A stretch of 64,000 nt of DNA from Tetmemena sp. SeJ-2015 (taxonomy: Eukaryota; Ciliophora; Spirotrichea; Sporadotrichida; Oxytrichidae): positions 1 through 64,000 of the forward strand of contig JAJKFJ010021560.1 of assembly GCA_027382625.1 (NCBI GenBank). The letters run 5' to 3'. The translations under genes and the position numbers were made by a program. Under the pieces are notes generated by a model that was not told the DNA's origin, did not search any database, and saw only the letters and a list, made by a program, of their open reading frames with translations. Positions 41,901 to 54,400 of the stretch are shown here, piece by piece (position 1 is the stretch's first letter; each line of letters opens with the position of its first letter).

Positions 41901-43174
41901 ATTAAAAAATTTTAATTTTATGTTTAACCTCCCGTAAAAGTCTACCAGTGTACTTATAAGATGCAATTAAATATTTTTTGGCAAAAGGAGCGATTGATTT
42001 TATGGAGTCAGAAAACTTCTGTGATTTCTATAAGGATTTGACAGATATAATATCGAAGTATTTATACGCTGAATGCAGACGTATAAATTCAAATATTCTA
42101 AGCAAGGGAATTACTTCAGTCAATGCTTTTCTTTACAAATATAATTAATTTTGAATTTAATAAAAGAATTTACAAGCAAGCAATTCAGTATAAATTATCT
42201 CTCGATACTCACTGGAAGCTGAAGAATGCCACTTTAGATTACCTCAAATCAATGCTTATTGCCAAATTAATTATTCATATTGTACAAATAATTTATAATA
42301 TTTAATAAGAACATTTTTTCCTAGTGTAGGGAAACTTATTCCAAAAAAATACAAATATATTTTATTTAGAGTAATCAAATTGTGTTTTTAAAAAAAAATT
42401 GTATAAAAGAAATGGTCCTTTTTATAAAGAGATTTCTTAAAATACCCATTTAAATATTTCAATAAATGAAATTCTATTACAAAGTGGCCTTAGTATTAAA
42501 ATAATAGGATTAGCTGTGTCAAGAATAATTATTTTTTTTCCTAGCCTTTTTATATTTTTAGAATATTAAAAACAATCAATTAAGTATAATTTTAATTTAT
42601 GGATGCAGACACTGCAATGGTAAACTCAATCGACATGAAAATGATAGTGATGGCTGATCCATTTAGCTATTTAAAAAGTGCCTGCGTTGATAGCGTAATA
42701 AGCTACTTCAAGAAATAGAAAGACCTCAGTATTATCATATTCTCAATTTTTGTGGTTCTTCTGAGTATATCTACACTTTACTTTTTGCTTACTTAAAAAT
42801 ATCTTTTTATTATTAGCAAAAATTAAATTTATAAGTTTATAAAAATATAAATTTATATTCTTTGACTGACAATACAAATAAAAGGATTAATTTATTATGA
42901 ACATAAACTATTAGCAGCACAAAGAAGTTATTAATAAGATAAATCAGAACCTGCACTTTATAAATTCATTACCTTAAAATATTAAATTTTTACTAGCATA
43001 CAAGATTAATCATTTTATTTTTAAATTTATTAAGTAACCTTATTAATTATGCTGGTGACTGTAAAATCATTCAGAAGAAGCATGTGGAACACCAATCTCA
43101 TGCTAAAGATCATTCCCTAGGATTCATTATCATAAGAGGACGCAGACCTCATTAAAAGTTTCTTTGTCAGTTGA
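29945..43174 (+). CDS. TmcB-like (tiny macrocysts) multipass membrane protein with PAS domain, copy 1, split into many segments
   Basis: Coding blocks in order: membrane segments with CWSEPNNNLQYLEFF (30.2 kb) and YAHEGSYFVLTIIFV (30.6 kb); the Cys block EGCDQIDCICEHFDEFCSIF (31.1 kb); TPR-like YHKNPHSQFVERAYNYF (32.6 kb) and DPKLYFWFGIIQLKIVND (33.3 kb); a PAS-like block FDHESGFLIADATVEQQGN (33.5 kb) with LVQFHYSYQYGYCFVCLIDV (33.8 kb). Then come membrane segments (35.4 kb), KTEERKFLALQF (36.9 kb), LTFILQRNMFSQ-type helices (41.3 kb, TFILQRNMFSQVEDSLTDLQ), and a C-terminal SMWNTNLMLKIIPQDSL ending at TGA 43172-43174. The order equals that of copy 2. The family is large in ciliates and includes Dictyostelium TmcB. 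Spacing of hundreds of AT-rich bases between blocks is far beyond introns in this window and fits IESs. Function unknown; a membrane sensor is an inference. Confidence 0.6.
36030..36350 (-). mobile_element. tRNA-derived (SINE-like) element or tRNA relic
   Basis: On the minus strand 36350-36275 has a D-arm-like hairpin GGCAG/CTGCC around AGTGGTC (36324-36340), a following stem CAGAT/ATTTG, and a perfect B-box-like GGGTTCGAATCTC (36280-36292). The T stem pairs poorly and no standard 7-base anticodon loop forms, so a functional tRNA is unlikely. Downstream on the same strand about 240 bases are GC-richer than the surroundings, as expected for a SINE body. It lies in the spacer of the first TmcB-like gene. 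Confidence 0.45.
36738..37855. repeat. Tandem duplication unit A within TmcB-like copy 1
   Basis: Closely matches unit B (37852-39053), including the coding block IFTIVFITLIISPIVSKTEE, the spacer, and the block around MYDNSSRQSDRNNF. The join between units is the motif TTTAGAATTTAAATGGG. Differences are mainly short indels in the AT-rich spacer. Confidence 0.85.
37852..39053. repeat. Tandem duplication unit B within TmcB-like copy 1
   Basis: Second copy of unit A, about 85 bases longer, with an inserted GA-rich run (38570-38596). The run TGG-A8-TG of unit A is TGG-AAAAGAAAA-TG in unit B, so the two copies have different downstream frames after that point. Confidence 0.85.
38570..38596. repeat. 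GA-rich simple repeat
   Basis: A run of GAGAGA interrupted by AAA, absent from the matching place in unit A. Confidence 0.8.
39054..41290. other. AT-rich spacer with two short coding-like blocks
   Basis: Mostly IES-like AT-rich DNA. Blocks at about 39340-39450 (SSSFHIRNPKFDYSFNQNGE) and 39480-39660 (INNSSHPYPRSYVLNLKDEN) are polar and fit the cytoplasmic region of TmcB-like copy 1; their frame and borders are unclear. Confidence 0.4.
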
Positions 43175-48600: not shown

Positions 48601-51600
48601 TTTACATGATGAACAAGCACCTATGCAAGTGGATTAAAAAAGACAACATTCAAGTCAAGAACATGAACATTAAGGATGTTATGCCCAAGCTATTAGCCGA
48701 GAATCATGATACCTTAAAAATTATATTAATTTGACTAGTTCATGGCAGACTATAATAAATCTGGAGAGTCTATGATCATCAACAAGAAGATGACTTTCTT
48801 TATCAGAGATGCGAATTAAAGCCTCATCTCAGTAAACTTCTTTGTTCAGTTTCATTATTCCTATCGCTATGGCCACTGTTTCATCTGCCTTATCGATATA
48901 AATAACACACTCAAGCCCTTTAATGATAATCAAGAATACAAATCAGACCACTTGGTCTTCATGAGCTTCGACAGCAAAAATGGACAAATTTATTAATTGA
49001 TTTTTAAATTATAGAGTGCTCGGACAACATTTCTAAGCTAGTATCATTCAATTCTGGAATCAAGATAGAGAGATCAATTGGTGCTATTGTTTTATTTAGC
49101 TTATCAGTTTCAAGAGAAGATGGTAGCTATGGATGACATCTTCGAGAACTTAAACTTTGCCATGCTCAAGTTAAATTCATTATTTTTGAGTTCTAGTTGG
49201 CAGTGTAAACACAGCGATAAGGAAAATGTACTCATGAAGGGCTTTACAAGTTAAACATGTACGATTTTTACGAAGATGAGGATAGCAGATTTATTAAAGT
49301 TATACATTTTTTATTCGCTTATGGTTCAGGTAGGAAATAGCTTTACGCCAAAATGGCACTCTATATTGAGGAGCTTGGCAGGCAAAAATGCTAAGTGGGA
49401 TTTGCTGTTTTCACTATTCAAAAGTCCAAGCTTTAAACTTTAGACTTCCAACTTTCACTAAACTCTAATGACAATACTGGAAAGATGGTGAAACTTATAG
49501 GCAATTTGGATTAGAACGATATGGAAGACAATCTATTAGTTTTTATTAAAATGATGACCAAGCTTCTTCCTCTTACAATGGGTCCTCCAATTATATTTTA
49601 ATTCTAGCACTACTGACAAAACAAACTAATTTGACATAAAGCAGTTCCATGTTTTCTATTAGCAGAATACTCCAAGAATTCTCAAGCTGGTGATTTAGCT
49701 TATGGTTTTCCTGTTCTTGAGTTGCATAATTATCTCTACCATAAATTTGGCCCTCAATGTTGAGAACACAATTTCAACTACGCTCGATATCAACTCAGTT
49801 AAAGCCTCCTTCGATAGAATAAACTACACAATCAACAGCAGAATGATCTTGAGAATACTCTTGAACATAGCTAATGGTTACGAGCCTAGTTACTCTTTAT
49901 TGGGTGGGGGCCTAAGATTCTAATCTTATTAAGGCCTACTCTAATTCAGAGTATCTAGCCTCTATGATGCAGACTACTATCTTGAAAATTCAGGCTACAC
50001 CTACGACAACGAATTCAAAGATTTTGTAAGCAAAGGAATAGAATTAGCATACCTCAATGGGTAGAACCAAGTTATTCATGACATTAAGAGCCTCAGTGTT
50101 GCTCAAAGTCTACTCATAACTAGAATATATCAGATCAACAACTATACTTCAATAATAATTTATTTACTGCTTCTGATATGATTGGAAAGCTTAAGAAATT
50201 ATATTTTCTAACATAGTTAAAATTAAAATGAGAATTAGAATTAAGTCAATAATAATGAAGAATTTAAATGTTGGTCGTTAAATTGTAAGTAAAGTAGTAT
50301 CGCAATATGGGGCTTTTTCAATATATTGTTAAATTTTAATATGAGTTTGTTCTATGCCATTAGGATAGGAGGTGCCTATCAAGAGATTTTGATGTCACAA
50401 ACTCTGAACCAATAATTTAACTAAGTTTAAAAATACTTATGGCCGTGGTAACTCTTTCAACAGACTTCCTGCAAAGAAGTGTCAAAGATGAAAGTTGTTT
50501 AGAATTTAATTTTTAATTGAATGATCATAAATTAAAGCCAATATCTCACATTTAAACTGCCACATACTTTAAGTATATTAATTTATTTATTATATTAATT
50601 CTCCTTTATTAAATTCTTAGCTATATATTTGGTTAAGATTCAGAGTCTAAATCCAAACCTCACTACTTCATACGCACCAACAATATAGGACTAAACTCTC
50701 TTCTTCGCAGTTAATAACTCTCTTTCATCTATCAGAGAAAATAATTTGAAACTTCAGGACTTGTATATTAGAAAGACTGTCCAGAGAGCTTCGGAAAAGC
50801 AAGATCAAGCAATCATTCTTTATAAAATAATATTTCTTTGCGTTGTCTCAATTGTCTCTATCCTTTTGGTTAATAATAAAATATAATTTATTGATAAAAA
50901 ATATTTATCTTATTTTCTACAATGATACAGAGTCATAAATGCCTTTTAACAACTCTAATTGACAATAATTTAGAAGATTTAATAAGGATTATTGCTGCAT
51001 CTTTACTATGCAATTAAAGGAGTAATTTATAATTTGGTTACTCTGATGATTTCTCCAATTTTTAGCAAGACGGAGGAAAGAAAGTTCCAGGCTCTAAAGT
51101 TTTTCATTAAGCTATCAGCTGACAAGATCAAGCTGTTTAAATGCAATATAAATCATTAAATGTTTTAAGAGAGATGTGAGCAGTGTCTGAGAGTGGAGGA
51201 GGACTTACTCAGGAGCAGCAACAACAACTTCATTCAAACTCATGGGACTGATAGATCCAAAAAACACTCTACTAGGTTTGGAAACAGGCATATAAGCAAA
51301 CAAAGCGAGGATTCTTTCCATGAAGAATATTCCTCTTCTTCTAAAATTGGCAGCAGCTACAGAGGGCTAATGCCTTCTACTGCCCTCCAAGACCCAAGAT
51401 ACAGCTCAAGACCCATTCTCAATCAAGGCGTCTCCATGTACGATTTCAGCTCAAGGATCATCGAGGAGGAAGAGAACAGCATTGAAACTATCTATATTTT
51501 ACTCTGTCCAATGTCGCTCCTAATATTTATAAAACTTATTTTAATAAAGTACTCAATATTTTTTATTAATTCGAGCTATATCAAGAAATCTCAGATCTTC

Positions 51601-54400
51601 ATGTCGCACTTCAAACTTACATTACTCTTTTACTCTATAAACTAGCCAACCAAGTAAAGAGACAGTAGATCAAATAAATTACTATATAGCAATATTTAGA
51701 TAGAAAGTTAAAGCATAGAAGACTCGTCTAGTCCAGTTAAAAGACAGCAGTCACTGGCGAGGAGGAGAATCAAAGAGAGTTTGGGGGAAGTAAACCAAGT
51801 CTCAAAAGCATATACTATGTTTTTTAAAAGAGTTCAAATCAGTGGATATGAATATCATTCATCAGAGTGAGAACGAGTCTTCCAACATAAAGAACAGTGA
51901 CCTACAAAATCATATTAAATAGCTTTAATGCAAGTCAAGACGCACTCGACTTAAATTCTACCATGAGACACCTCGTTCAGCCTTTGCCAAGCTTATCTTC
52001 CTCAGGATTATTAAATATTTTTATTGGAATAGCAGAAGTCGGAATTCGCAAAAAGAAATCTAACAATCAACATGAAAATAATAGTCACGAATTTATTTTC
52101 AAGAAATTCTAGTTAAAATTAACCACGGCACATAAAATAATAATATTTTTTCTCTAATAAAATAAATTTAAGATTTTATGAAGCATTTATTTTTAAAATT
52201 TTATCAATAGAGCTTCAACAAATTATTAATCTTTAGCGGGTATCAGATTACTATATTTAATTATAAAATAATATATTTCTTAAAGCTAAATAAATTTTTT
52301 TTCTCAATTTAGTAATTATAGAAATGAATAATTTGATGAAAACGAGACTGAAGCCTAAGATGAAGATCTCGATGAAGATTCTAATATTAAAATTGCAAGA
52401 ATCAAGAAACTTTATAATTTAAATAGACATTTTCATCATTTATTCTTAATAATCTTTACTTAAAAATATTTATAATTTATTTGATAATCGTGTAATTGAT
52501 ACCAATATTTAGATTTTGAAACTTAAAATGCATGAAAATTTCTTAAGAAGTAGGTTTTCAGCACAAGCTTTCAATACATTAAGAATGAAAATTAAAAATC
52601 AATCAAAATTTATCTATTTAAAATGAAGAATTATTTAGAAGATGCTCAATATTTAATGAATAATAATTGTATAATTGATAATAATAATATATAATTAATT
52701 AAATAAACTTGCATTCCAGAAGAAGATTTAGACTCTCGTGATAACTTTGGTAATTTCTGCAGTATTTGCCCAGTACTAAACATTACAACTATTGATTAAT
52801 TCTTCTTATAAGTAAAAACTAGTGTCTGATTTCCTTTAGTTTACTTGTTGACGTTTCTTTTGCAAAGAGATGTGTATAAGAAAGCTCAAACATCAGTGGA
52901 GGACTTGAATCTAATTTTCAATAAGGAATCTTGCATAGAAGACTTATTTGGCTTTCTCAGAGAAAACACCATCTAGAATTATAGAGTATTTTAATTCTCT
53001 TAGAATTCATCACTTCTCTACTCCAAAGATGATAATACATCTGCAGTAGAATACTTAATGAACGAGTGCCAATAAAGAGAAACCAAGTACAACTAAATGA
53101 GGAAAGACTTGCCTAAGTATTTGGGAGATGCCAAAGGAGCCATTGAGAAGATGGAGTCATCAGCATTTTGTCTGGAGTTCTATCCTGCTAATAATGACAT
53201 CTATTAGCTCTATCCCCTGTGCAATCAAGCACTCAACGGAATTCTCAGTAAAGGAATAACAAATGTTAACGCCTTAATGTAAACACCTCAATTTTTTAAT
53301 CCACACTAGCTAGTATGAATTAGATTTACCAAAAAGCTTAGAAGTACAAGCTTAACTTGGAAACAGCTTGGGCTTAGAAGGAAGCAAACTCTACTTTCTT
53401 GAAACAAATCCTAATGGATCAAGAGACCGTAGACTTACTAGACATGAAGGAGAGATTACTTGCAATTCCCTTTGGCAACTTAAAAGATGCATGCGTGAGC
53501 AGCGTAATCAGCTACTTCGAAAAGCAGAGAGACACCTTGATAATTATGGGTAGAATATGAATTGTTGATCGAGGATAAGTGCAAAATTGATCTCTAGGGA
53601 GGGGAAGGAAGAGGCTAGTAAAGGGCTTATTTAAATTAATTAATTTTTGAATTAAGACACTAATAGAATCTAAGATGGAAGAGAAGACCTCAAAGGTAAA
53701 AGTGACACAGCTGGCTTAGAGATTCTACGACATGTACAACAGTCTCAAGACAGCTTGAAACAAACTCTTCCTTGAAGAAGAAGATAAATCTCTTGAGTGT
53801 TGGATTTAAGAACCTGATCAACGCAAACAGAATCCTAAGCTTTGATGCAAAAAATCAGACTCTTTGAAAGCACTTGAAACCTATTTCAAGAGAGATGAAG
53901 ATATTCAAGATATGGAAACAAACTTGGGCAAGATAGCAAAGACTACAGGAGGCTAAAACTAAGTGTGTCAGGTTTGCTTCCTCAAGATGGCTGATGAATA
54001 CTATAGATGCGCTGCCGAGACAGTTCAATAGAGGTTGACATGTTCCATTATTTATATTAAACAGACATATATAATCTCTCTTAATTTATTAAAGCTATAA
54101 CTTACACTTCCTTCCCTCCCTAGAGAGATCAATTTTGTACTTACCCTCCATCAACAATTCATATTCTACCCATAATAAAAACAAATATATATGATAATCC
54201 TTTATGCGGTGTTTGTGACTTTGATAACCCTATTCCTAGTCTACTTAAATTATCATAATCTATAATATATCTTTTTCATGAGAGTGCTGAAACGGATAAG
54301 AATTACAATGTGGAATACAAATATTATGGTGAAGATCATACCCCAAGAAGTCCTTTCAAAGAACGACTAGGAGCTTATCAAATCATTTTTCGTGAGTTGA
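45690..54400 (+). CDS. TmcB-like (tiny macrocysts) multipass membrane protein with PAS domain, copy 2
   Basis: The best preserved copy. Blocks: N-terminal membrane helix VFGIMIIVLQTALFMPLSLF (45.85 kb); GCWSEPDSTLQYLEILAKF (46.33 kb); YDNHEGYIIVFLFSFPYSF (46.65 kb); Cys block IDGCEQIDCICEVFDDFC (47.1 kb); TPR-like SFALRYFIVNFMKIFMDQI with KNPNSEFIENAYNYSALFLF (47.7 kb). Then DPNLYFWFGLIQLKIVNDSN (48.4 kb), PAS-like FDHESGFMIADAKIKTQGS (48.55 kb), FVQFHYSYRYGHCFICLIDI (48.84 kb), membrane block LMVFLFLSCIIISTINLALN (49.7 kb), TLMISPIFSKTEERKFQAL (51.04 kb), and a Ser-rich cytoplasmic region (51.2-51.5 kb). The end is YLLTFLLQRDVYKKAQTSVE (52.85 kb), VSSVISYFEKQRDT (53.5 kb), then TMWNTNIMVKIIPQEVLS with TGA 54398-54400. 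The family is TmcB-like by motif memory; PAS suggests sensing. A 654-bp IES near the end hosts another gene. Confidence 0.65.
53545..54198 (+). other. Large IES with 7-bp pointer TGATAAT, containing a foreign coding segment
   Basis: TGATAAT at 53538-53544 and 54192-54198. Removing 654 bases joins SSVISYFEKQRDTLII to LYAVFVTLITLFLVYLN, exactly where paralog copy 1 reads SYFKKQKDLSIIIFSIFVVL without an insert. Inside lies the 14-3-3-like coding segment. Confidence 0.8.
53675..54050 (+). CDS. 14-3-3-like protein, N-terminal half, nested inside an IES
   Basis: ATG 53675 opens MEEKTSKVKVTQLAQRFYDM. After a small frame correction it continues LETNSSLKKKINLLSVGFKN and LINANRILSFDAKNQ, then after another break ALETYFKRDEDIQDMETNLG and CQVCFLKMADEYYRCAAE. 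These align in order with 14-3-3 landmarks: the AERYDDM helix, ERNLLSVAYKN, and VFYLKMKGDYYRYLAE. 14-3-3 proteins bind phospho-Ser/Thr motifs. The C-terminal half is not found nearby, so this is either one cluster of MDSs of a scattered gene or a relic. Frame breaks near 53752 and 53850 may be micro-IESs. The copy is divergent: for example, the Arg of the usual GARR is replaced by Asn in NANR. Confidence 0.65.

Follow-up and report, generated by a model that had tools for sequence, protein, structure and literature searches.

The interruption of the TmcB-like gene

The stretch of DNA considered here, called the window throughout, comprises 64,000 nucleotides of the ciliate Tetmemena sp. SeJ-2015 (contig JAJKFJ010021560.1, positions 1 to 64,000 of the forward strand). 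In it a TmcB-like gene, translated with TAA and TAG as glutamine, is interrupted by DNA that holds a short element with terminal inverted repeats (TIRs), and inside this element lies a stretch of 14-3-3 descent. An earlier note on this DNA had read the interruption as an internal eliminated sequence (IES) with a 14-3-3 gene segment nested within it, and had made it depend on the timing of excision whether both genes can come from one molecule.

The interruption is bracketed by a direct repeat of the 7-bp word TGATAAT on the forward strand, with the left pointer at 53538-53544 marking the junction with the left macronuclear-destined segment (MDS) and the right pointer at 54192-54198. The left flanking MDS of the TmcB-like gene (53318-53537, forward strand) is similar to a paralog, copy 1, at 42165-42290 and 42596-42784, and the right flanking MDS (54199-54397, forward strand), which is transmembrane-like, is similar to the same paralog at 42596-42784 and 43016-43171. 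When the flanks are joined on TGATAAT the TmcB-like frame stays open (...FEKQRDTLIILYAVFVTLITLFLVYL...) and aligns with the forward-strand paralog stretch 42596-42784, uninterrupted at the homologous position, at 48% identity (E 9e-14) and without a gap at the join. Thus the pointer pair around 654 bp, and the restoration of the frame where the paralog is ungapped, are as the earlier note had them. The alternative 7-bp word TTGATAA (53537/54221) also gives an in-frame join, but paralog residues are then lost and a TGA is met.

A 7-bp repeat found anywhere in two 41-nt stretches is common in this A+T-rich DNA (107 of 614 window placements and 299 of 2000 shuffles), whereas holding the register fixed makes a repeat of at least 7 bp rare (130 of 69,825 placements). 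The register of the TGATAAT repeat is fixed independently by the paralog, and it is because of this, together with the rarity of a fixed-register repeat, that the junction is accepted as IES-like. One mark of an IES in hypotrichs is a pointer repeat at which removal of the DNA between restores the gene, and the TGATAAT pair, the frame and the paralog provide it; the IES reading is kept as the likely one, and from the anatomy we infer somatic excision at TGATAAT. It could instead be argued that the element disrupted this TmcB-like copy and left a germline pseudogene, with TGATAAT repeated by chance and no precise excision. The commonness of 7-bp repeats near two ends speaks for such a history, as does an element that stops 17 bp short of the right pointer, but the repeat sits in the exact register that restores the frame ungapped against the paralog, the frame across the joined flanks is open, and at least one further short IES would apparently have to be removed from the gene; a pseudogene seems unlikely.

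An element with inverted ends and many copies

Directly adjoining the last base of the left pointer is the TATGGG end of an element of 630 bp (53545-54174, forward strand; TATGGG...CCCATA), which resembles a miniature inverted-repeat transposable element (MITE) and whose ends were set by its TIRs and by comparison with 41 other copies. The left TIR of about 67-70 bp begins at the element end (53545-53611, forward strand) and the right TIR occupies 54107-54174 on the reverse strand, as judged from the inverted-repeat match (54107-54176 of the reverse strand against 53543-53611, at 92%) and from the other copies; the arms 53543-53595 and 54124-54176 are 94% complementary. On the left, then, the element meets the pointer, and on the right it ends 17 bp before the second pointer, with an A+T-rich 17 bp (54175-54191, no strand assigned) that is a candidate remnant of an older short IES. 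Of the earlier account of this 654-bp piece the pointer anatomy holds, while the inverted repeats and the multi-copy nature had been missed.

Copies were sought in the germline-like assembly that contains the window (146 Mb, 5,213 contigs). The element interior (window 53660-54060) matches at least 40 places (40 scored of 66 candidates) and the left TIR likewise at least 40 (40 scored of 71 candidates); a second query adds C3526, C2012 and C2162, giving at least 43 places for a first subfamily, and a query with a sister copy finds at least 30 further places, some partial, that make up a sister subfamily. The family so has at least 73 matched places, some of them allelic, partial or on duplicate contigs (L020 and L021 are identical, as are L071 and L047). 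Those read comprise 42 of the 43 first-subfamily places, and these are the copies counted below unless stated, together with 2 of the 30 of the sister subfamily. As expected of MITEs, the length is short and uniform (580-636 bp between outermost matches in 34 of the 42) and the inverted ends are alike in most copies, with the family form TATRGG...CCYATA and an extended end form TATRGG(T/A)NGAATATG; both sister-subfamily copies read have ends of the same kind. No autonomous partner was seen among the 40 scored TIR places, no search having been aimed at transposase families, and the longest ATG frame in the 42 copies is 172 aa.

Of the 32 copies whose ends are both good (duplicate loci counted), 30 have TA on either side, and TA is also part of the element ends. 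Exact flank repeats of 3 bp or more lying wholly outside the element occur in at most 1 of the 32, and candidate target duplications of 3-8 bp were rejected, none being found beyond that 1 of 32. Beyond the right end of the element the flanks differ from locus to locus. Because the flanks of most copies are A+T-rich, most copies are probably in IES or intergenic DNA; where the left flank extends to 200 bp, that of the window copy is the most G+C-rich (41%), and this copy is a favourable case, its boundary being shown by a gene.

Four copies (L012, L018, L019 and L065) share flanks crosswise, left flank A occurring with right flank X or Z and left flank B with right flank X or Y, as could come from recombination between elements, scrambling or assembly mis-joins. 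Such swapping of flanks between contigs is what might encourage the view that the window locus is itself an assembly artefact, a repeat mis-joined into the TmcB-like locus. In the window, however, both flanks are of the same gene in the correct order and frame, unexpected from a mis-join, and a DNA-level search of the assembly with the right flank (54199-54397) returns that flank alone; an artefact is considered exceedingly unlikely. For the window insertion itself the assembly showed no empty site and no allelic one.

A 14-3-3 fragment within the element

Three blocks of 14-3-3 similarity lie in order on the forward strand of the element, downstream of an ATG at 53675 that opens 27 codons to a TGA (53675-53758, translated by code 6) and marks the N-terminal start of the captured fragment. 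Block 1 (KVTQLAQRFYDMYNSLK, 53699-53749) and block 3 (FLKMADEYYRCAAETVQ, 53978-54028), both seen when host 14-3-3 proteins were compared with the copies by tblastn, share one frame, and block 2 (NLLSVGFKNLINANR, 53787-53831), with 11 of 15 residues identical to the host 14-3-3 protein h81, is in another. The similarity stops at about the end of block 3, near residue 130, so the fragment spans approximately residues 1-130, the N-terminal or 5' half of a 14-3-3 gene.

For this comparison the proteins of three host 14-3-3 genes were run by tblastn against the copies, yielding 119 matches at E<0.01 in 35 of the 42, all on the plus strand; in a controlled run 26 of the 42 copies matched and none of 420 dinucleotide-shuffled sequences did. 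L018, the best sister copy tested, matches PF00244 over positions 33-126 (E 1e-6, 28.9 bits, below the curated cut-off of 33.2), with further PF00244 matches from C895 (E 9e-4) and C2037 (E 1.1e-3), and against the PDB the best 60 of its 124 matches are all 14-3-3 proteins (best E 6.5e-4). That a stretch of 14-3-3 descent sits inside the interruption, as the earlier note proposed, is thus supported by the sister-copy matches. As a test that note had set a profile search, which the window copy taken alone fails, in that it does not match PF00244 at E<=1; it is chiefly the better preserved sister copies that show the 14-3-3 origin. At the level of sequence, the family rescues the 14-3-3 descent of the window copy and not its function.

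A frame broken in most copies

The earlier note saw an ATG with about 120 codons and 14-3-3 landmarks in order. The ATG is there and so are the landmarks in their order, but the single frame is not: the frame from the ATG ends after 27 codons at TGA 53756-53758, a second TGA follows at 53843-53845, and the landmarks are spread over two frames. Nor are the breaks confined to the window. The spacing of blocks 1 and 2 is exactly 88 nt in 29 of the 42 copies and 1 modulo 3 in 35 (host 96 nt), and that of blocks 2 and 3 is exactly 191 nt in 17 and 2 modulo 3 in 23 (host 225 nt), the host values being taken from residue positions in the tblastn matches. At least one spacing is indivisible by three in 41 of the 42, the exception, L027, having insertions or deletions inside blocks 1 and 2, and going by the spacing, blocks 1 and 2 stand in different frames in 38. 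In the two sister-subfamily copies read block 2 is also out of frame, in differing phases (1 and 2 modulo 3 for the two spacings in L082, 2 and 1 in L083). Because frame breaks are common to most copies, the 14-3-3 fragment was most likely dead before the family spread.

These observations bear directly on the nested gene as first proposed, in which the insert would hold MDSs of a real 14-3-3 gene with its own somatic chromosome, lodged in the IES of the TmcB-like gene after the manner of a Russian doll. An ATG followed by landmarks in order is what such a gene would offer, and in Oxytricha MDSs are commonly nested within IESs, 1,163 contigs at nesting depth 1 being reported (PMC5940158). Yet matching pieces occur at no fewer than 73 places, the spacings are broken in the way just described, L027 included, and the N-terminal half alone is present while full-length 14-3-3 genes exist elsewhere in the same assembly. 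Taken as a readable part of a gene the inner segment was rejected, since it has two TGAs and frame breaks, the latter common to most copies. A nested gene here is scarcely credible: the inner piece is the frame-broken 5' half carried by one place among those of a TIR element family. The question whether both genes can come from one molecule falls away with it, because the insert is not a nested second gene.

By parsimony over 33 copies (9 duplicate or truncated ones of the 42 left out) there are 3.73, 2.56 and 2.69 changes per column in blocks 1, 2 and 3; for comparison, the two parts of the subterminal non-coding DNA give 2.68 and 1.93, and the stretch from block 2 to block 3 gives 2.46. In the pooled blocks there is a weak excess at third codon positions (2.86, 2.84 and 3.57 changes per column for the three positions, p 0.015), clearest in block 1 (p 0.006), absent in block 3 and repeated in pairwise counts over all copies used. 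At first and second positions blocks 2 and 3 show 2.21-3.08 changes per column, which equals or exceeds the rates of the slower non-coding parts; in block 1 these positions show 3.66 and 3.00, more than any non-coding part. The third-position excess is put down to composition or history and not to a coding function that was maintained; purifying selection on the 14-3-3 fragment is not convincingly seen.

A functional, germline-limited gene, in which a frame of the element encodes a truncated or altered 14-3-3-like protein, would find some comfort in that excess, in the long frames of some copies (167 aa in L010, 147 aa in L018, 172 aa in L069) and in the germline-limited open reading frames within IESs that are described as transcribed in Oxytricha (PMC8495736). 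With TGA as the sole stop, however, long frames are expected by chance, and a working frame sits badly with block 2 being out of frame with block 1 in all but a few copies, with block rates at or above those of the slower non-coding parts, and with the two in-frame TGAs of the window copy. Such a gene is judged very improbable.

Host 14-3-3 genes and the source of the fragment

At the DNA level a sister-subfamily copy is 88% identical over 101 nt to the host 14-3-3 gene C2595, the match starting 37 nt upstream of the ATG, and the 5' end is 73% identical over 70 nt to C4694 and C2749. For block 3 the live-gene matches listed include C4694 and C2916 at 91% over 47 nt and C2749 at 89%, with C2595 absent from the best 40 of 43 candidates. 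A fragment of a host gene held between TIRs, as in Pack-TYPE elements, is therefore what both the protein and the DNA matches to host 14-3-3 indicate. Of 1,479 matches to one host 14-3-3, the single eukprot entry in the best 120 is 84% identical, in keeping, like the translation of TAA and TAG as glutamine, with a hypotrich. Two 62-nt matches at 94% (G000:C3912:14207-14268 and G000:C2000:109873-109934) cover the end of block 3 together with downstream DNA that is not 14-3-3; they lie outside the element copies listed and may be truncated elements or another carrier.

The gene at G000:C2595:199177-200119 is itself a 14-3-3 gene in several pieces, with TGAs inside the matches and with a 5' end common to the element family. 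About 102-108 nt interrupt it near residues 40-46, and it has another gap after about residue 131; in the element, by contrast, block 2 runs unbroken over residues 39-53. From this contrast it could be proposed that the fragment was captured from a processed template, either rearranged somatic DNA or spliced RNA, and that a somatic form of the gene so came back to the germline on a transposon. The C2595 gap, however, is a multiple of three and the paralogs C4694 and C2749 have no gap; the interruption of C2595 may have arisen after the capture, or the fragment may come from a different 14-3-3 paralog, and capture from a processed template is on balance improbable.

A proposed history of the insertion

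Overall the interruption is very probably a Pack-TYPE-like MITE with a dead 14-3-3 half-gene, which lies within an IES of the TmcB-like gene or acts as one. The 654 bp would then be an IES made almost wholly of a transposase-less MITE with TIRs of about 70 bp, whose insertion seems to have left no clear target duplication longer than the TA common to its ends. An ancestor of the family would have captured the start codon of a host 14-3-3 gene with some upstream DNA and about the first half of the gene; base losses would have put the middle block out of frame before most copies arose, as the shared spacings of the first subfamily suggest, and the dead fragment would have been copied around the germline genome along with the element. 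In the window its most likely landing site was next to the left pointer of an IES of about 20 bp that was already there and of which 17 bp would remain at the right, an older short IES being probable because that 17 bp of non-element DNA stands between the right end and the second pointer. Alternatively there may have been a direct insertion followed by pointer sliding. In development the DNA would be cut at TGATAAT and the element discarded together with its 14-3-3 fragment, and therefore only the TmcB-like gene would be made.

Several points weigh against this account. The PF00244 matches of the copies are all below the curated cut-off, and the window peptide, even when read through its TGAs, has no match to that profile at E<=1 in Pfam. 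The weak third-position excess in the pooled blocks could hint at old constraint. The TA duplication is inseparable from the TA in the element ends, and registers that count terminal element bases do give 3-bp matches in 6 of 32 copies and TATA in 19 of 32. Because no autonomous partner or transposase was seen among the TIR matches listed, the assignment to MITEs is drawn from structure. Finally, excision of the 654 bp is read from germline anatomy.

Other breaks in the TmcB-like copies

The label TmcB-like was not borne out by Pfam, which gave no match above cut-offs for the pieces scanned; the match of lowest E among them is a sub-threshold one to DUF4790 (20.6 bits against a cut-off of 31.5) from the open frame at window 51191-52072. 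A probable second short IES of the same gene lies at window 53277-53317, with 38 bp between two copies of ATG (53277-53279 and 53315-53317), and excising those 38 bp would join ...VNALM to NQIYQKAQ..., in agreement with paralog copy 1 (VNAFL, RIYKQAIQ). Copy 1 is in turn broken by about 230 bp (window 42785-43015) a few residues downstream of the point at which the MITE lies in copy 2, so that the IES-like breaks of the two TmcB-like copies are at different, nearby places.

Relation to known systems and significance

The DNA excised from ciliate genes is believed to be seeded by transposons. MITEs that serve as IESs are described in Blepharisma, with Paramecium cases cited in the same paper (PMC9942856), and the present element is like the Blepharisma MITIES and BogoMITE in being a short, many-copy TIR element without transposase in germline IESs; the MITIES are there sometimes nested in other IESs (PMC9942856). 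BogoMITE, as that paper presents it, differs in several respects (PMC9942856). It belongs to an IES size class of about 389 bp with no predicted coding sequence, compared with about 630 bp and a captured gene fragment here; its TAA/TTA duplication is the IES end, where the ends here are of TA type and a longer pointer, TGATAAT, stands off the right element end; and its autonomous partner is known, in contrast to the present family, for which none was seen among the TIR matches listed. No other report of MITEs in ciliate micronuclear IESs than the Blepharisma paper (PMC9942856) was found in the open-access literature searched, and that literature likewise yielded neither a MITE in hypotrich ciliates nor a gene-fragment-bearing MITE in any ciliate, both being weak negatives for that reason.

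The element also resembles plant Pack-TYPE elements, described as non-autonomous TIR elements with coding fragments of host genes (PMC8903248), the differences being that here one fragment is common to the copies read, that the setting is a ciliate germline and that excision is expected. The TBE (telomere-bearing element) transposons of Oxytricha and Tetmemena also sit in IESs, and their pointer boundaries may mismatch the transposon ends, as here, although TBEs are described as autonomous Tc1/mariner elements with three open reading frames (PMC9797194), of which the present element has none. With the Russian-doll loci of Oxytricha the element shares the presence of coding-derived DNA of another gene inside an IES, but in the nested loci described the MDSs of one nanochromosome lie in the IES of another (PMC5940158), and the inner piece here does not seem to be a readable MDS set for a somatic chromosome. 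The find belongs to an ordinary kind and is unusual in what it combines, namely a MITE, a dead 14-3-3 half-gene and an IES.

In Oxytricha the DNA to be kept is described as marked by small RNAs from the old somatic nucleus (PMC8495736). Short parts of the element are about 90% identical to live 14-3-3 genes (such as the 47 nt at 91%), and because old-nucleus small RNAs mark retained DNA in Oxytricha these stretches could interfere with elimination of the element. For those reading germline sequence the locus is a warning that a gene-like piece inside an IES is not necessarily a nested gene. With a MITE family that bears a gene fragment in a hypotrich-like germline, the range of Pack-TYPE-like capture would come to include ciliates, and the series of copies would allow IES formation, pointer position and element end to be compared. 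The locus shows too how such elements can sit in germline genes when the cell excises them.

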